Below are positions 2,122 through 6,437 of a stretch of 20,237 nt of DNA, piece by piece. Under the pieces are notes generated by a model. It worked only from the letters and a program-made list of their open reading frames with translations. It was not told where the DNA came from and ran no database searches. A program made the position numbers and the translations under genes. The stretch lies in the IMG/VR virus record IMGVR_UViG_3300048839_000199, positions 1-20,237 of that record. The stretch is one strand, 5' to 3'. How positions within the stretch are numbered: the stretch's first letter is position 1; the number at the start of each line of letters is the position of its first letter. Source of the DNA: a virus.

Positions 2122-2243
2122 CCTGCCCGAAATGCAACGGCACCGGACGCTACAGCGTCTGGCAATCGTGGTACAGCCGGCGGGTCACGGCGTGCGGGCT
2201 GTGTGGCGGCTCAGGGTTCGCGGACTACGGGGGAGAAGGATGA
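2118..2243 (+). CDS. Tiny DnaJ-type zinc-ribbon protein, 41 aa
   Basis: GTG 2118 overlaps the preceding stop (GTGA) and the stop overlaps the helicase start (ATGA), so it fits the tight gene chain exactly. The product contains CPKCNGTGRY near its start and CGLCGGSG near its end. These are two CxxCxGxG motifs, the same type as in the DnaJ/Hsp40 zinc-binding domain, where paired motifs hold one zinc ion. No J-domain is present. Stand-alone pairs like this occur as small phage proteins of unknown role. A zinc-bound RNA- or protein-binding peptide is likely. Confidence 0.68.
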   Translation: MTCPKCNGTGRYSVWQSWYSRRVTACGLCGGSGFADYGGEG

Positions 2244-3610
2244 GCTATCGCGACTTCCTCGCGACGAAGCGCCCGGTGCTGGCGGCTGCCGGCATCGATG
2301 TCCCGGCGTCAGCCGTGAACCCGCTGCTGTTCCCGCACCAGCGTGACCTCGTGCGGTGGGCGCTGCGCAAGGGCCGCTCCGCTATCTTCGCAGACACCGG
2401 TCTCGGGAAGACGTTCATGCAGCTGGAATGGGCGCGTCTCACCGGGGAGCGAACGCTCATCCTGGCGCCGCTGAGCATCGCGCGGCAGACGGTCCGTGAG
2501 GCCCGGAAGCTGGACATCGACCTGACGTTCGCGCGGTCGCAGCCGGAAGCCGGACCGCTGACCATCACGAACTACGAGATGCTCCACCACTTCGACCCGC
2601 AGGCCTTCGGCGCCGTGGTCCTGGACGAATCGAGCATCCTGAAGGCCACGGAGGGCGTGTACCGGAACCGGCTCATCGAGGAGTTCGCCGAGACGCCGTT
2701 CCGGCTGTGCTGCACGGCGACCCCGGCGCCCAACGACATCGCGGAGATCACGAACCACTCGGCGTTTCTCGGCATCATGCCGCGGCGGGATGTGCTGGCC
2801 ACGTTCTTCCTGCACGAGGCTGACGATGCGAGGGCGACCGGCTGGCGGCTGAAGAACCACGCCCGCGAGGCGTTCTGGCGGTGGCTCGCTTCATGGGGCA
2901 TGTCGCTGAAGCGGCCCTCGGACATCGGCTACAGCGACGAAGGCTACCTGCTTCCGCCGTTGGAAATTCTGCCCGTCATCACGGGCGGGGAAGTGAAGGT
3001 GCCCGGGCGGCTGTTCGTGGAGAAGCTGCGGGGCGTAGGCGACCGTGCAGCCGTTCGGCGCCAGACGATTGAGGCGCGTGTGACGGCTGCGGTAGAGCTC
3101 ATCCGCCAGGACCGGCAGCCGTGGATCGCGTGGTGCGGCTTGAACGATGAATCGGCGGCCGTTGCGGCCGCACTTGGTGACGAGGCGGTGGAGGTGACGG
3201 GGAGCATGTCGCCGGAAGAGAAGGCGGAGCGCATCGAGGCGTTCGTGGACGGCCGCTACCGCGTGCTCGTGTCAAAGGTGGCGATCGCGGGGTTCGGGAT
3301 GAACTTCCAGCACTGCGCGCGGATGGTGTTCGTTGGCATCGGCGACTCGTACGAGCAGTACTACCAGGCGGTCCGGCGCTGCTGGCGCTTTGGGCAGGCG
3401 AGCGAAGTAAAAGCCTACGTGGTGCTGAGCGAGCCGGAGCGCGCCGTGTTCGACAACGTGCTGCGCAAGGAAGCGGAGGCGGAGGAGATGGCGCGCGAGC
3501 TGGTGAAGCACGTGGCGGCCTATGAGCGGGCGGAAATCGAGGGCGGTTCACTCGGGAACTTCAACGACGGCCACGACGTGGCGATGGAGGTGCCGCAATG
3601 GCTGGCGTAA
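2240..3610 (+). CDS. SNF2-like superfamily 2 helicase
   Basis: The ATG at 2240 has GGGGGAGAAGG just before it and gives a 456-residue protein. Superfamily 2 motifs follow in order: a PHQRDLV segment near 32, Walker A ADTGLGKT at 51-58, LILAP near 73-77, DESS (motif II) at 129-132, TATPAPND (motif III) at 159-166, GFGMNF (motif V) at 351-356, and QAVRRCWRFGQ (motif VI) at 376-386. The motif III and VI forms match the SNF2 group, which are DNA translocases rather than strand separators. Only the helicase core is present. It overlaps the methyltransferase gene by 13 bases, and phages often pair such helicases with DNA methylases. A role in replication, recombination or anti-restriction is inferred. 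Confidence 0.88.
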   Translation: MSYRDFLATKRPVLAAAGIDVPASAVNPLLFPHQRDLVRWALRKGRSAIFADTGLGKTFMQLEWARLTGERTLILAPLSIARQTVREARKLDIDLTFARSQPEAGPLTITNYEMLHHFDPQAFGAVVLDESSILKATEGVYRNRLIEEFAETPFRLCCTATPAPNDIAEITNHSAFLGIMPRRDVLATFFLHEADDARATGWRLKNHAREAFWRWLASWGMSLKRPSDIGYSDEGYLLPPLEILPVITGGEVKVPGRLFVEKLRGVGDRAAVRRQTIEARVTAAVELIRQDRQPWIAWCGLNDESAAVAAALGDEAVEVTGSMSPEEKAERIEAFVDGRYRVLVSKVAIAGFGMNFQHCARMVFVGIGDSYEQYYQAVRRCWRFGQASEVKAYVVLSEPERAVFDNVLRKEAEAEEMARELVKHVAAYERAEIEGGSLGNFNDGHDVAMEVPQWLA

Positions 3611-4476
3611 TCAGGCAGGAGATCGGCCCGGACTATGCGCTCTACCAGGGGGACTCCGCGGAAGTACTCCGCGGTCTGCCCTCCGAGTCGGTGGACTTCA
3701 TGGTCTACAGCCCACCCTTCCAGGCGCTCTACGTGTACAGCGCGACGGAGCGGGACCTCGGCAACTGCCGCACGCCGGAGGAGTTCTTCGAGCACCTGAG
3801 CTTTATCACGGCCGAGCTGTACCGGCTGCTGAAGCCCGGGCGGCTGATGGCTGTCCACTGCGCGCAGATCACCGCGCAAAAAGTGCTCGACGGGTGGATC
3901 GGGCTGAAGGATTTCCGCGGGCAGCTCATCGAGCACTACGGCCGCCACGGCTTCTACTTCCACCGGGAAGTCTGCATCGACAAGGACCCGCAGGCGCAGG
4001 CGATTCGGACGCACTCGAAGGCGTTGTTGTTCGTCCAGATGCGGAAGGACCGGAGCTGGATCGGCCCGGCCATCGCTGACTTCATTCTCGTGTTTCGGAA
4101 GGGCGTGGATGACCCGGAGGTCCGCATCGACCAGGCCCCGATCACGGAGGACCAGTGGATCGAGTGGGCCCGGCCCATCTGGTACGGCATCCGGGAGACG
4201 GACACCCTGCAGGCGCCGCCGAAGGCCAACGACGAGCGGCACGTCGCGCCACTGCAACTCGGGGTCATCGAGCGCTGCATCCGGCTGTGGAGCAACCCCG
4301 GCGAGACGGTGCTAACGCCGTTCATGGGCATCGGCTCAGAGGCGTATGTCGCGCTGCAGCACGGCCGCAAGGCCATCGGCGTGGAGCTAAAGCCGGAGTA
4401 CTTCGACACGGCGGTGAGGAACATCACGACGGCCCGGGCGCAGCAGGTCCTTGACTTCGGAGGAGGTGATGCATGA
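3598..4476 (+). CDS. Beta-class DNA methyltransferase (N4-cytosine or N6-adenine)
   Basis: This 292-residue enzyme has motif IV SPPF at 38-41 near the N-terminus, and the AdoMet-binding region near the C-terminus: TPFMGIGSE at 240-248 followed by GRKAIGVELKPEY. Catalytic motif before AdoMet motif defines the beta class. The SPP(F/Y/W) form is typical of N4-cytosine enzymes, but N6-adenine members with the same residues exist, so the target base is left open. HVAPLQLGVIERCIRLW at 215-231 matches motif X. No restriction endonuclease is adjacent, so it is probably an orphan phage enzyme that protects phage DNA. It starts inside the helicase gene, and its stop overlaps the next two starts. Confidence 0.88.
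   Translation: MAGVIRQEIGPDYALYQGDSAEVLRGLPSESVDFMVYSPPFQALYVYSATERDLGNCRTPEEFFEHLSFITAELYRLLKPGRLMAVHCAQITAQKVLDGWIGLKDFRGQLIEHYGRHGFYFHREVCIDKDPQAQAIRTHSKALLFVQMRKDRSWIGPAIADFILVFRKGVDDPEVRIDQAPITEDQWIEWARPIWYGIRETDTLQAPPKANDERHVAPLQLGVIERCIRLWSNPGETVLTPFMGIGSEAYVALQHGRKAIGVELKPEYFDTAVRNITTARAQQVLDFGGGDA
4461..4466 (+). promoter_or_regulatory. Shared ribosome binding site for two overlapping genes
   Basis: AGGAGG at 4461-4466 lies six bases before ATG 4473, an ideal distance for the alternate-frame gene. ATG 4469 for the methyltransferase is only two bases from the end of the same element, or about five if the upstream GGAGG register pairs instead. The stop of the preceding gene (4474-4476) overlaps ATG 4473. 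One site therefore appears to serve starts in two frames four bases apart, which could set a ratio between the two products. Confidence 0.5.
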
Positions 4477-5812
4477 CGTGGTACTACGTCCCCAACGAGT
4501 CCTTAGCCTCTGTTCCGGCGCAGGAGGTCTCGACGTCGGAGTGCATGACGCTCTGGGCGGATGCGCTCGCACCGTCGTATACGTGGAACACGAAGCCACT
4601 GCCTGCGAAGTCCTGGCTGCGCGTATTGCGGACGGTGCCCTGGATGACGCGCCGATTTGGGGCGACCTCCACGCCTTCGATGCTCGCCCGTGGCGCGGCC
4701 GCGTGGATGGAATCATTGGGGGCTATCCCTGCCAGCCCTTTTCCGTTGCCGGGAAGCGGCTCGGGACGGCAGACCCGCGTCATCTCTGGCCCCGAATATC
4801 AGCCATCATTCGAGATGTTCAGCCCGCCTGGTGCTTCTTCGAGAACGTGCGAGGGCATGTGCGGATCGGACTGCGAGAGGTGCGAGCGGATCTTCTCAGC
4901 ATGGGTTACGACGTTCATGCGGGCATATTCTCGGCGGCGGAAGTCGGCGCGCCTCACCAGCGCGAACGGCTCTTCATCCTGGCGGACGCCGGAAGCGCCG
5001 GGGCAGACGGGTGGACCGCGTTCGAGGACGGGGAGCGTTGGCAAGGGGCACCAGGTGACGACTGCGGAACAGGCCGAGCACTGGCCGACTCCCAGGACGA
5101 TTACGGGCGGCGGCGAGAGTGGCGAGAGGAAAGCGGAACTCGGCCGGACGGAGAGCGGCGGCGGGGACTTGCAAGCAGCGGTAGCGATGTGGCCGACACC
5201 GCGCTCGGAGGACAGCGAGAGCGCGGGGAACCATCCGGGGGCGACGGACTCCCTGACGGGGGCAACGAGCCAGTGGGCGACGCCTGCGGCTCGCTCAGTG
5301 AAGGGCGGGTACTCAGAGGAGGCGCTTACTCGGCAGGACGGGAAGAGTCGTATGGACATCTTAGACAACCAGGCGATCTACTTCCTCCCTTCCCACCAGG
5401 CCCCGGAGACGCCGACGCATGGCGACGAATCCTCGCAGTCCGCCCCGACCTCGCGCCGGCCCAATCTCGATGGGATGTCATCACGCGTACGCTCCGAAGT
5501 CGAGGCACTGTTCCGCCTGAGCACTCGGGCGGAAACCGTCGTGCTCGACAGGAAGAAACGAGAACTCGTGCGCGTGCCGCGGGCGTCGAGAGGATGGACC
5601 CGGCCCGCCTTCCGGCGGCAACTGAATCCGAACTTCGTCGAGTGGTTAATGAACTGGTGTCCGAAGTGGACCTCTCTCGCACCGCTCGATTGCGCATCAC
5701 CGGGAACGGCGTTGTCCCTCAGTGCGCCAGCCTCGCCTTCCGCACCCTCTGGGGACAACTGGCCGACGCCGGACACACAGAACGTGAGATCAGGGGGGGC
5801 AATGAGAGCTGA
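4469..5812 (+). CDS. C5-cytosine DNA methyltransferase (Dcm-like)
   Basis: The 447-residue product carries the C5-MTase motifs in order: motif I LSLCSGAGGLD near 12-22, motif IV GGYPCQPFS at 84-92 with catalytic Cys88, motif VI ENV at 125-127, motif VIII QRERLFIL at 164-171, and the C-terminal GNGVVPQCA of motif X. A variable region of about 240 residues, containing the target recognition domain, separates VIII from X. It transfers methyl from AdoMet to cytosine C5, probably to evade host restriction. ATG 4469 was chosen; TTG 4451 and GTG 4466 are alternatives. The whole gene overlaps the frame at 4473-5879. A hand count of the first 100 codons gives about 65% GC at third positions, lower than neighbours appear, as dual coding would produce. 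Confidence 0.88.
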   Translation: MHDVVLRPQRVLSLCSGAGGLDVGVHDALGGCARTVVYVEHEATACEVLAARIADGALDDAPIWGDLHAFDARPWRGRVDGIIGGYPCQPFSVAGKRLGTADPRHLWPRISAIIRDVQPAWCFFENVRGHVRIGLREVRADLLSMGYDVHAGIFSAAEVGAPHQRERLFILADAGSAGADGWTAFEDGERWQGAPGDDCGTGRALADSQDDYGRRREWREESGTRPDGERRRGLASSGSDVADTALGGQRERGEPSGGDGLPDGGNEPVGDACGSLSEGRVLRGGAYSAGREESYGHLRQPGDLLPPFPPGPGDADAWRRILAVRPDLAPAQSRWDVITRTLRSRGTVPPEHSGGNRRARQEETRTRARAAGVERMDPARLPAATESELRRVVNELVSEVDLSRTARLRITGNGVVPQCASLAFRTLWGQLADAGHTEREIRGGNES

Positions 5813-5879
5813 GGCGAAGGGGAAGCACGCCATGTCGCTGCATCACGTCGTGGAGGGCTGGTCGCATGAAGCGCCATAG
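4473..5879 (+). CDS. WPTP-repeat phage protein encoded within the methyltransferase gene
   Basis: This 468-residue frame lies over the whole Dcm-like gene. W-x-T-P motifs occur at residues 170 (WRTP), 204 and 240 (WPTP), 268 (WATP) and 430 (WPTP), and LNPNFVEWLMNWCPKWT at 384-400. From memory, repeated WPTP plus an LNP-x-FVEWLMG-x-P-x-GW motif marks a phage protein family often annotated hypothetical or methyltransferase-associated; the stretch KSARLTSANGSSSW also looks typical. ATG 4473 has the best-placed AGGAGG in the region and overlaps the upstream stop (ATGA). Third-position GC over its first 100 codons is about 79% by hand count. It extends 67 bases beyond the Dcm stop. Function unknown. 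The alternative, a chance open frame in GC-rich DNA, does not explain the motifs. Confidence 0.68.
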   Translation: MTWYYVPNESLASVPAQEVSTSECMTLWADALAPSYTWNTKPLPAKSWLRVLRTVPWMTRRFGATSTPSMLARGAAAWMESLGAIPASPFPLPGSGSGRQTRVISGPEYQPSFEMFSPPGASSRTCEGMCGSDCERCERIFSAWVTTFMRAYSRRRKSARLTSANGSSSWRTPEAPGQTGGPRSRTGSVGKGHQVTTAEQAEHWPTPRTITGGGESGERKAELGRTESGGGDLQAAVAMWPTPRSEDSESAGNHPGATDSLTGATSQWATPAARSVKGGYSEEALTRQDGKSRMDILDNQAIYFLPSHQAPETPTHGDESSQSAPTSRRPNLDGMSSRVRSEVEALFRLSTRAETVVLDRKKRELVRVPRASRGWTRPAFRRQLNPNFVEWLMNWCPKWTSLAPLDCASPGTALSLSAPASPSAPSGDNWPTPDTQNVRSGGAMRAEAKGKHAMSLHHVVEGWSHEAP

Positions 5880-6036
5880 GTTCCGTATGGCTGGCATGAC
5901 GTGGCGATTCCGCCCGGTGCCGCGCCCTTGTTTCCGCGACTGGCACGACTGCGGGCCACGGCGCTGGTACGACGGCTGCGCCACCTGCGGGCTGGACTTC
6001 GAGGCAGTGATCCACCGGCCAGGGAGGCGACGATGA
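5866..6036 (+). CDS. Small Arg/Cys-rich hypothetical protein, 56 aa
   Basis: ATG 5866 lies within the last 14 bases of the preceding frame and has GGAGGG upstream. The stop overlaps the next start (ATGA). The basic N-terminus (MKRHRFRMAGMTWRFR) is followed by C22, C29, C38 and C41 with nearby His, the last pair as CATC. This spacing could hold one zinc ion. It is probably a small zinc-binding, nucleic-acid-contacting protein. No family was recognised. Confidence 0.6.
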   Translation: MKRHRFRMAGMTWRFRPVPRPCFRDWHDCGPRRWYDGCATCGLDFEAVIHRPGRRR

Positions 6037-6437
6037 GCGCACCAGGCAACAAGCGCCGCCGCGACGATGGCGGGCGCAACGACTGGCGCACCCCGCCAGA
6101 GTTGTTCCGGCTGCTCGATATGGAGTTTCGATTCACGCTCGATGCGGCGGCGGACGATGAAAACCACCTCTGCGAGCGGTATCTGACCGAAGCCGAGGAC
6201 GCGCTTTCTGCGGACGTGGCCGATCACGTTGTCTGGTGCAATCCACCATACGGCGATCTGGCTCCGTGGGTGACTGCGTTCGCAACCTGGGCCATCAAGG
6301 GCCACTGCACCGTGGTTGCGTTGTTGCCCGCCGCAACCGATACACGCGCGTGCTGCATGTGCGGTGGATCGGCAATGCACCAGCGGTCGCCACGGGACAG
6401 AGCCCGCTATGGGCACCAGGAGGAACAGCATGAGTGA
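6033..6437 (+). CDS. Phage DNA N6-adenine methyltransferase-like protein, C-terminus shortened
   Basis: Residues 17-105 match the phage Dam-like N6-adenine methyltransferase family: DWRTPPELFRLLD, then FTLDAAAD (AdoMet-binding region, D37), VVWCNPPYGD with catalytic NPPY at 70-73, and VVALLPAATDTR at 94-105. Members I know continue for roughly 50-60 more residues, with a RFIRGRLRF-like strand. Here the last 29 residues (ACCMCGGSAMHQRSP onward) look unrelated. Reading either other frame after 6345 does not restore the expected tail, so a simple one-base frameshift is not shown. The core catalytic residues remain, so it may be active, but truncation is likely. It starts at ATG 6033 and ends overlapping the next gene by eight bases. 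Confidence 0.78.
   Translation: MSAPGNKRRRDDGGRNDWRTPPELFRLLDMEFRFTLDAAADDENHLCERYLTEAEDALSADVADHVVWCNPPYGDLAPWVTAFATWAIKGHCTVVALLPAATDTRACCMCGGSAMHQRSPRDRARYGHQEEQHE

Follow-up and report, generated by a model that had tools for sequence, protein, structure and literature searches.

Overlapping reading frames of a viral C5-cytosine methyltransferase locus appear to encode interlocking parts of one enzyme

Two open frames and their features

The window analysed here is the 20,237-base IMG/VR virus record IMGVR_UViG_3300048839_000199, which carries a C5-cytosine methyltransferase locus that is open in two registers of its plus strand. We call these two same-strand readings frame A and frame B, the codons of frame B lying one base 3′ of those of frame A. 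Frame A is open from a TTG at 4451 to a stop codon ending at 5812, and its likely start is the ATG at 4469, which gives a product of 447 amino acids (4469-5812). Frame B extends from an ATG at 4473 to 5879 (468 amino acids). The two share 1340 nucleotides (nt), in agreement with the roughly 1.34 kb estimated in an earlier reading of this DNA made from its letters alone (the sequence-only reading). The GC contents at third codon positions that this reading had counted by hand over the first 100 codons were also recovered, with values of 0.65 for frame A and 0.79 for frame B. On the evidence below, we consider it highly probable that this locus encodes a single two-subunit C5-methyltransferase read in two frames.

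Judged by its sequence and predicted fold, frame A encodes the catalytic core of a C5-cytosine methyltransferase, as first proposed. Its match to PF00145 (E 1.8e-31) begins at residue 16 and ends at residue 178, counted from the TTG at 4451, and frame A also matches phrog_363 in PHROGs and, over residues 11-171, the sequence of M.HaeIII. Motifs I, IV (PCQ), VI (ENV) and VIII are present, and the catalytic and S-adenosylmethionine (SAM)-binding core with motifs I-VIII is placed at 4493-5008 by the AlphaFold model and by the A-type substitutions of relatives. In this model, the ten-residue mean of the predicted local distance difference test (pLDDT) is 80-98 for residues 11-170, and Foldseek aligns the fold to about 180 columns of the 327 residues of M.HhaI, with a further match to M.HaeIII. 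Residues 184-279 and 284-301 fall below 50, residues 301-380 are of moderate confidence (65-84), and the model is confident again near 421-430. Motif X, which reads RLRITGNGVVPQC at 5687-5725, includes GNGVVP as residues 412-417, of which G412, N413, V416 and P417 are invariant in 61 rows. Given the selection seen in relatives, the pLDDT profile and the extent of the PF00145 match, a motif IX and a recognition domain in the same chain were not found in frame A.

Frame B contains five W-x-T-P motifs, exactly where the sequence-only reading had seen them. In order, these are WRTP over LADAGS of frame A (4980-4991), WPTP over LADSQ (5082-5093), WPTP over VADTA (5190-5201), WATP over GDACG (5274-5285) and, 3′ of the frame A motif X, WPTP over LADAG (5760-5771). 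The variable region, with the first four of these repeats, covers 4977-5621 and, from the substitution pattern and pLDDT, is a part of the locus that is selected in frame B in relatives. It is followed at 5622-5672 by a motif IX-like block, supported by family comparison, that reads LNPNFVEWLMNWCPKWT in frame B and TESELRRVVNELVSEVD in frame A. Frame B matches phrog_1008 (E 6.9e-22), which is named a DNA methyltransferase, as well as phrog_27243. Its relatives match one or more of phrog_1008, phrog_27243 and phrog_31772, the last of which is also named a DNA methyltransferase, and the PHROGs descriptions of these three families say nothing of sharing DNA with phrog_363. An HNH or other known domain in frame B was considered and rejected, given that there is no Pfam match at E 0.1; there is likewise no NCBIfam match at E 1.

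Both frames begin in a shared translation start at 4459-4476, where the DNA reads GGAGGAGGTG ATG C ATG and the two ATG codons at 4469 and 4473 open frames A and B, respectively. The upstream gene (3598-4476) ends within this cluster at TGA 4474-4476. Seventy-three distinct relatives have a start codon at the frame B position. In 57 of the 73, a frame A start precedes it by 1-13 nt (at -4 in 50), compared with 7 of 73 for a third-frame control, and the paired codons often read RTGAATG. Furthermore, a Shine-Dalgarno-like tetramer is located 6-16 nt upstream in 60 of the 73, against 18 and 3 for two control places. In the window, a single Shine-Dalgarno sequence precedes both starts, which are separated by four bases, so that both chains could come from one message.

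The openness of both frames and the number of W-x-T-P motifs are well beyond chance. When the codons of frame A in the window are permuted synonymously 2000 times, frame B acquires 5.3 stops on average and remains stop-free in 0.1% of the trials; the W-x-T-P count has a mean of 0.49 and a maximum of 4, against the 5 observed. Relatives behave likewise. After 26 of 172 loci with a frame A match were removed at 90% identity or more, the remaining 146 carry 202 stops in frame B where 757 are expected, and 1713 in the third frame where 1996 are expected. The depletion is also seen near 50% GC, as with L007 (GC 0.49; 1 stop versus 12.0 expected) and L166 (0 versus 6.1), and is less clear for L002 (6 versus 8.9). 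Across the 239 loci with all landmarks, frame B carries 594 W-x-T-P motifs where 75 are expected, in numbers that range from 0 to 7 per locus, and frame A carries one.

Selection along the shared DNA

Relatives permit the two readings to be distinguished by the codon position at which they differ, since A1 is B3, A2 is B1 and A3 is B2. From 447 loci, 71 were removed at 97% identity or more to leave 376 nonredundant loci, and these furnished 85 independent pairs in which each locus is used once. Pairs without a landmark in a given region were dropped for that region. Over motifs I-VIII, mismatch at A1/A2/A3 is 0.167/0.094/0.316, and pairs with more change at A3 than at A1 outnumber the opposite kind by 55 to 0. 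Over the variable region the values are 0.334/0.123/0.106 (2 to 50), over the IX block 0.223/0.059/0.057 (1 to 42) and at motif X 0.116/0.060/0.311 (44 to 5). Read from these substitutions, selection alternates along the locus, acting on frame A over motifs I-VIII, on frame B over the W-x-T-P region and IX block, and on frame A again at motif X. The expectation that both frames would be found under selection is therefore borne out in relatives, in alternating segments.

The changeover is sharp where motif VIII ends and again after IX. With the A3/A1 ratio taken in 24-nt bins, the bin that immediately precedes the end of motif VIII has a value of 2.05, after a dip to about 1.2 at 49-96 nt before that end, and the ratio is 0.64 in the bin that follows and then 0.21-0.38. 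Over the final 72 nt upstream of IX it rises to 0.7-1.0; it is 0.26 within IX and reaches 3.73 at X. The 72-nt stretch upstream of IX in relatives, which reads FPPGPxDxxxW in frame A, is a candidate for true double constraint. An enterobacterial set that includes Salmonella phage epsilon15 (15 non-independent pairs) gives the same order, with A3 exceeding A1 over motifs I-VIII in 15 of 15 pairs, A1 exceeding A3 over the variable region in 15 of 15, and A3 again exceeding A1 after IX in 13 of 15; the IX block in this set is even-handed (4 to 4, with 7 even). For epsilon15 and Klebsiella phage 2 LV-2017 alone, the A1/A2/A3 counts are 10/6/34 over motifs I-VIII, 21/11/5 over the variable region and 2/1/12 after IX.

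A second line of evidence comes from codon choice. A scan of the virus collection for the frame A peptide EPAxxRVADG, in any codons, returned 108 stretches, of which 90 are in methyltransferase frames. In these 90, the codons CCC, GTG, GCT, GAT and GGG are used without exception, CGA in 84 and GAA in 87, and with few variants the stretches spell LNPx[FW]VEWLMG in frame B. The same amino acids are encoded by mixed codons elsewhere in these genes (GTG 0.30, GCT 0.19, GAT 0.36), and the other 18 matches, outside methyltransferases, have mixed wobble bases. Wobble positions fixed in 90 of 90 cases indicate that frame A has ceded its wobble freedom there to frame B.

These patterns also bear on how the repeats arose. 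The sequence-only reading had suggested that repeats in the methyltransferase frame are forced by the second protein, or the reverse. The substitutions of relatives favour the first direction, in which the W-x-T-P units of frame B force the LADA-type repeats of frame A, and speak against the second. That reading had also assigned the target recognition domain to the variable region of frame A. This is probably incorrect, as the same region is selected in frame B. Given that selection changes frame at motif borders, each chain would carry the other's reading as mostly unselected linker.

One enzyme in two chains, and the competing explanations

We propose that frame A provides the large subunit, with motifs I-VIII for catalysis and SAM binding, a largely unstructured middle that would be mostly an out-of-frame reading of frame B, and then motif X. 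Frame B would provide the second subunit, with W-x-T-P units as a putative target recognition region followed by the motif IX-like block. Alternative initiation on one message would yield both chains, which would assemble into one enzyme and, side by side, restore the order of motifs I-VIII, recognition region, IX and X. We infer that frame B is translated, that the W-x-T-P units of its product make contact with DNA and that this product pairs with the frame A chain. We are evenly balanced on the fullest version of this proposal, in which the two readings are complementary parts (catalysis and target recognition) of one enzyme whose overlap has persisted in hundreds of divergent loci from phages and prophages, and in which W-x-T-P units could be exchangeable recognition modules.

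Several observations weigh against this proposal. Neither frame dominates in the last 72 nt before IX, where frame A keeps residues, and frame A residues 301-380 are predicted with moderate confidence even though they lie inside the region selected in frame B. The middle of frame A is thus not all linker. The predicted structure of the W-x-T-P and IX part of frame B is poor (pLDDT 61.6, predicted template modelling score 0.27), and its confidence was too low for the model to be included in the fold search. Run against the PDB, a frame B profile matched one initiation factor and, at a best E of 0.068, ribosomal protein L32e and nothing else, so that no C5-methyltransferase was found and the term 'recognition domain' for frame B is drawn from its position. 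Many loci were fetched with frame B queries, and their open-frame counts are in part ascertained. Locus sets fetched with frame A do agree with those fetched with frame B on the open frame: among 80 loci fetched with frame A only, the 49 with an IX-like block in frame B have 98 frame B stops versus 321 expected, and the 31 whose block was unrecognised by the pattern have 59 versus 188, of which 20 are in the single-chain gene L560 (5 of the 31 loci end inside frame A). Finally, the window has no close relative and is absent from all 85 pairs. When compared with its 25 best frame B relatives, all distant, it shows the same direction weakly, in an alignment made in the favoured frame and hence biased.

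The explanation that survives best alongside a two-subunit enzyme is in fact compatible with it for the family: the window copy itself might be degenerating and no longer an active enzyme, which we judge unlikely. Its IX block departs from the family at two nearly invariant positions (N for G and C for P), an insertion precedes IX relative to L003 (Synechococcus phage Yong-M2-251), L007, L009 and L002, and there is a WPTP after motif X. Against this stand the two open frames, including a frame B that chance would rarely leave without stops, and the intact frame A motifs and tandem starts. Our claim for the family is, on these sequence comparisons, firmer than any claim of activity for the window copy.

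It is less likely still that frame B encodes an independent protein with a function of its own, such as DNA binding or anti-restriction, whose overlap with the methyltransferase is a matter of chance. The sequence-only reading took frame B for a separate phage family, and the lack of Pfam or NCBIfam membership and of a related solved structure is in keeping with that idea. However, frame B was not found without a methyltransferase in the loci tested. In 243 of 245 loci, a count that includes duplicates, its match lies over a C5-methyltransferase in the +1 phase, and the two exceptions are a chance match to a single-chain gene (L008) and a weak match (L243). A motif scan agrees, since among the 120 matches listed there are no stand-alone copies, with 114 in the +1 phase, 3 in another phase, 2 in the methyltransferase open reading frame (ORF) and 1 cut by a contig end. 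An IX-like block in another phase relative to the methyltransferase frame was seen in L257, L269 and L353; in L335 and L344 the block falls within the methyltransferase ORF, and these two loci were dropped as single-chain evidence because they looked like local frame changes. The sequence-only reading would have held a lack of homologues outside the overlap against coding in frame B. That lack tells against a separate family and does not refute coding.

Furthermore, frame A is without a recognisable recognition domain and motif IX, and frame B supplies a block that single-chain methyltransferases have at the corresponding place. phrog_1008 also matches the C-terminal parts of two such enzymes, L560 and that of Mycobacterium phage Fushigi (L008). 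By hhalign, LNPxFVEWLMGWPxGW of frame B aligns over 23-25 columns with LNPKFVEYMMGLPEGW of L560 (94.9%) and VSAEFYEWLMGLPRGW of L008 (83.0%), in each case a piece that precedes motif X in one chain. The block thereby resembles the motif IX of a small subunit, a name that we read from its place. In these single-chain genes, stops in the +1 frame are at the expected level (20 versus 20.4 in L560 and 7 versus 7.3 in L008). In Gordonia phage Geodirt, the IX block and motif X itself are both in frame B, and frame A ends earlier. Taken together, single-chain loci and those with X in frame A or in frame B indicate that the DNA order of motifs I-VIII, variable region, IX and X is kept, and that it is the reading frame of the later pieces that differs.

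Ribosomal frameshifting would offer a different route to one enzyme, with ribosomes passing into frame B after motif VIII and back to frame A before motif X to make one chain. We regard this as very improbable, even though the A, B, A order of selection is what a twice-shifted chain requires. Such a chain would have no need for frame A to be open through the region selected in frame B, or for frame B to be largely open over the region selected in frame A and to have its own start near that of frame A. To examine the first of these, 30 of the 376 loci were excluded (17 without an IX pattern, 6 with IX in the ORF of frame A and 7 at contig ends). In 329 of the remaining 346, frame A stays open beyond IX, and permuting the codons of frame B would leave it open in about 11.5 of 239. 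Frame A stops before IX in the other 17, which favours frameshifting and weighs against two subunits of the proposed kind. Three of these 17 are actinophages (L004-L006) with motif X in frame B, a layout that likewise departs from the one proposed for the window. In 11 loci where the IX block lies more than 300 nt past the end of frame A, frame A stops early in all 11.

As for frame B, it is stop-free in the variable region in 239 of 239 loci. Over motifs I-VIII it has 324 stops versus 785 expected (1485 versus 1628 for the third frame), and it reaches within 60 nt of the start of the frame A profile match, or beyond, in 173 of the 239. In the three actinophages frame B is not kept open over frame A (5 stops versus 4.3 expected, 2 versus 2.6 and 2 versus 3.0), as expected if it begins late there. 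Motif X 'GN' is located at the end of frame A in nearly all loci, with L065 and L458 as exceptions. The early-stop loci also include L015, L047, L055 and L268, and a second A-like piece follows in L015, L047 and L055, which suggests that frame A itself can be split. In a Bacteroides finegoldii plasmid (L475, 1241-2524), a frame A stop lies between the piece with the first motif, which ends at 1513, and the PCQ piece, which begins at 1637.

The last possibility, that GC-rich codons in the methyltransferase leave frame B open passively, as a side effect, has next to no probability and is refuted for the family by the wobble fixation and the phase of substitution in the 85 pairs, just as the sequence-only reading had anticipated. 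The window does have a high GC content, and genes of that kind often have an open +1 frame, but the frame is open near 50% GC as well.

Distribution, annotation and comparison with known systems

An IX block in the +1 frame is present in 353 of the 376 nonredundant frame A loci, which come from virus contigs, named phages and genomes. One frame B query returned 73 genome loci, many with names of Alphaproteobacteria, and an enterobacterial frame B matches 197 of 50,697 phage records, some of which were examined singly. In the window, three methyltransferase units stand in a row behind a helicase (2132-6437). The helicase, with SNF2-related and Helicase_C domains, is at 2132-3610, an N6/N4 methyltransferase (PF01555) at 3598-4476 lies just before the A/B pair, and a Dam-type enzyme (PF05869) at 5901-6437 follows it.

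Both frames are seldom listed in the annotated records examined. Among 18 annotated records in which frame A carries motif X and overlaps frame B, with the annotated frames verified from record coordinates, 15 list frame A alone (L475 just its end), 2 list frame B alone (PMG1 and R6L) and 1 lists both (Xanthomonas phage PhiXhv-18). Of the three actinophages with the other split, two list both frames and Geodirt lists frame B alone. In PhiXhv-18 (L483), the overlapping 680-1672 and 762-1667 were deposited as separate DNA methyltransferase genes. In Pseudomonas phage PMG1 (L481, 798-1559) and Erythrobacter phage R6L (L482, 1356-1739), the listed methyltransferase gene is frame B and not the catalytic frame, and the PMG1 record carries a note of similarity to a 'putative Mte8-like protein'.

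If a two-subunit enzyme is indeed encoded, a large group of phage C5-methyltransferases has its recognition part in the frame that most of the annotated records examined omit, and the listed gene expressed alone would probably fail. Specificity could then change in the hidden frame, and the catalytic frame need only stay open. These loci would also allow the origin and splitting of dual-frame genes to be studied in hundreds of natural replicates, given that single-chain genes, two-chain genes with motif X in frame A and two-chain genes with motif X in frame B are all seen.

The common picture of a long same-strand overlap is of two unrelated proteins in one DNA. In contrast, the products of frames A and B appear to interlock as parts of one enzyme, and selection passes between the frames at motif borders. 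Among the titles and abstract openings listed by literature searches, outside which most subscription papers lie, none describes the A/B overlap. A plasmid search with a frame B protein returned 8 records, with no EcoHK31I or EaeI among the feature names shown.

The nearest likeness by motif layout alone is M.EcoHK31I, whose small-subunit gene is reportedly inside the large one in another frame. This enzyme (recognition sequence YGGCCR) is described as two polypeptides, of which the larger carries motifs I-VIII and X together with a predicted recognition domain and the smaller IX only, and M.AquI (CYCGRG) as having two chains with motifs I-VIII and IX-X (PMC3404938). By that account, M.AquI is unlike the window in that its small subunit also has motif X, which in the window is in frame A; the M.AquI-type layout, with IX and X in the second chain, is seen in actinophage Geodirt (L006). 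A second frame within a phage methylase gene, with both readings open, is also described for the ShiLan domain, a mobile insertion in which an HNH endonuclease lies hidden in another frame of the DNA methylase of a mycobacteriophage (PMC11855218). That hidden product is an unrelated endonuclease, whereas frame B has no Pfam domain and appears to supply part of the enzyme.

M.EcoHK31I provides the closest comparison by motif layout: as proposed for the window, its large subunit has motifs I-VIII and X but lacks IX, which is in the small subunit. It differs in the predicted recognition domain of its large subunit, a region that here is under frame B selection in relatives, and further differences are the window starts four bases apart and the W-x-T-P repeats of frame B. 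What is new relative to a split of the M.EcoHK31I type, as read from substitutions in relatives, is probably that the recognition region lies in the hidden frame.

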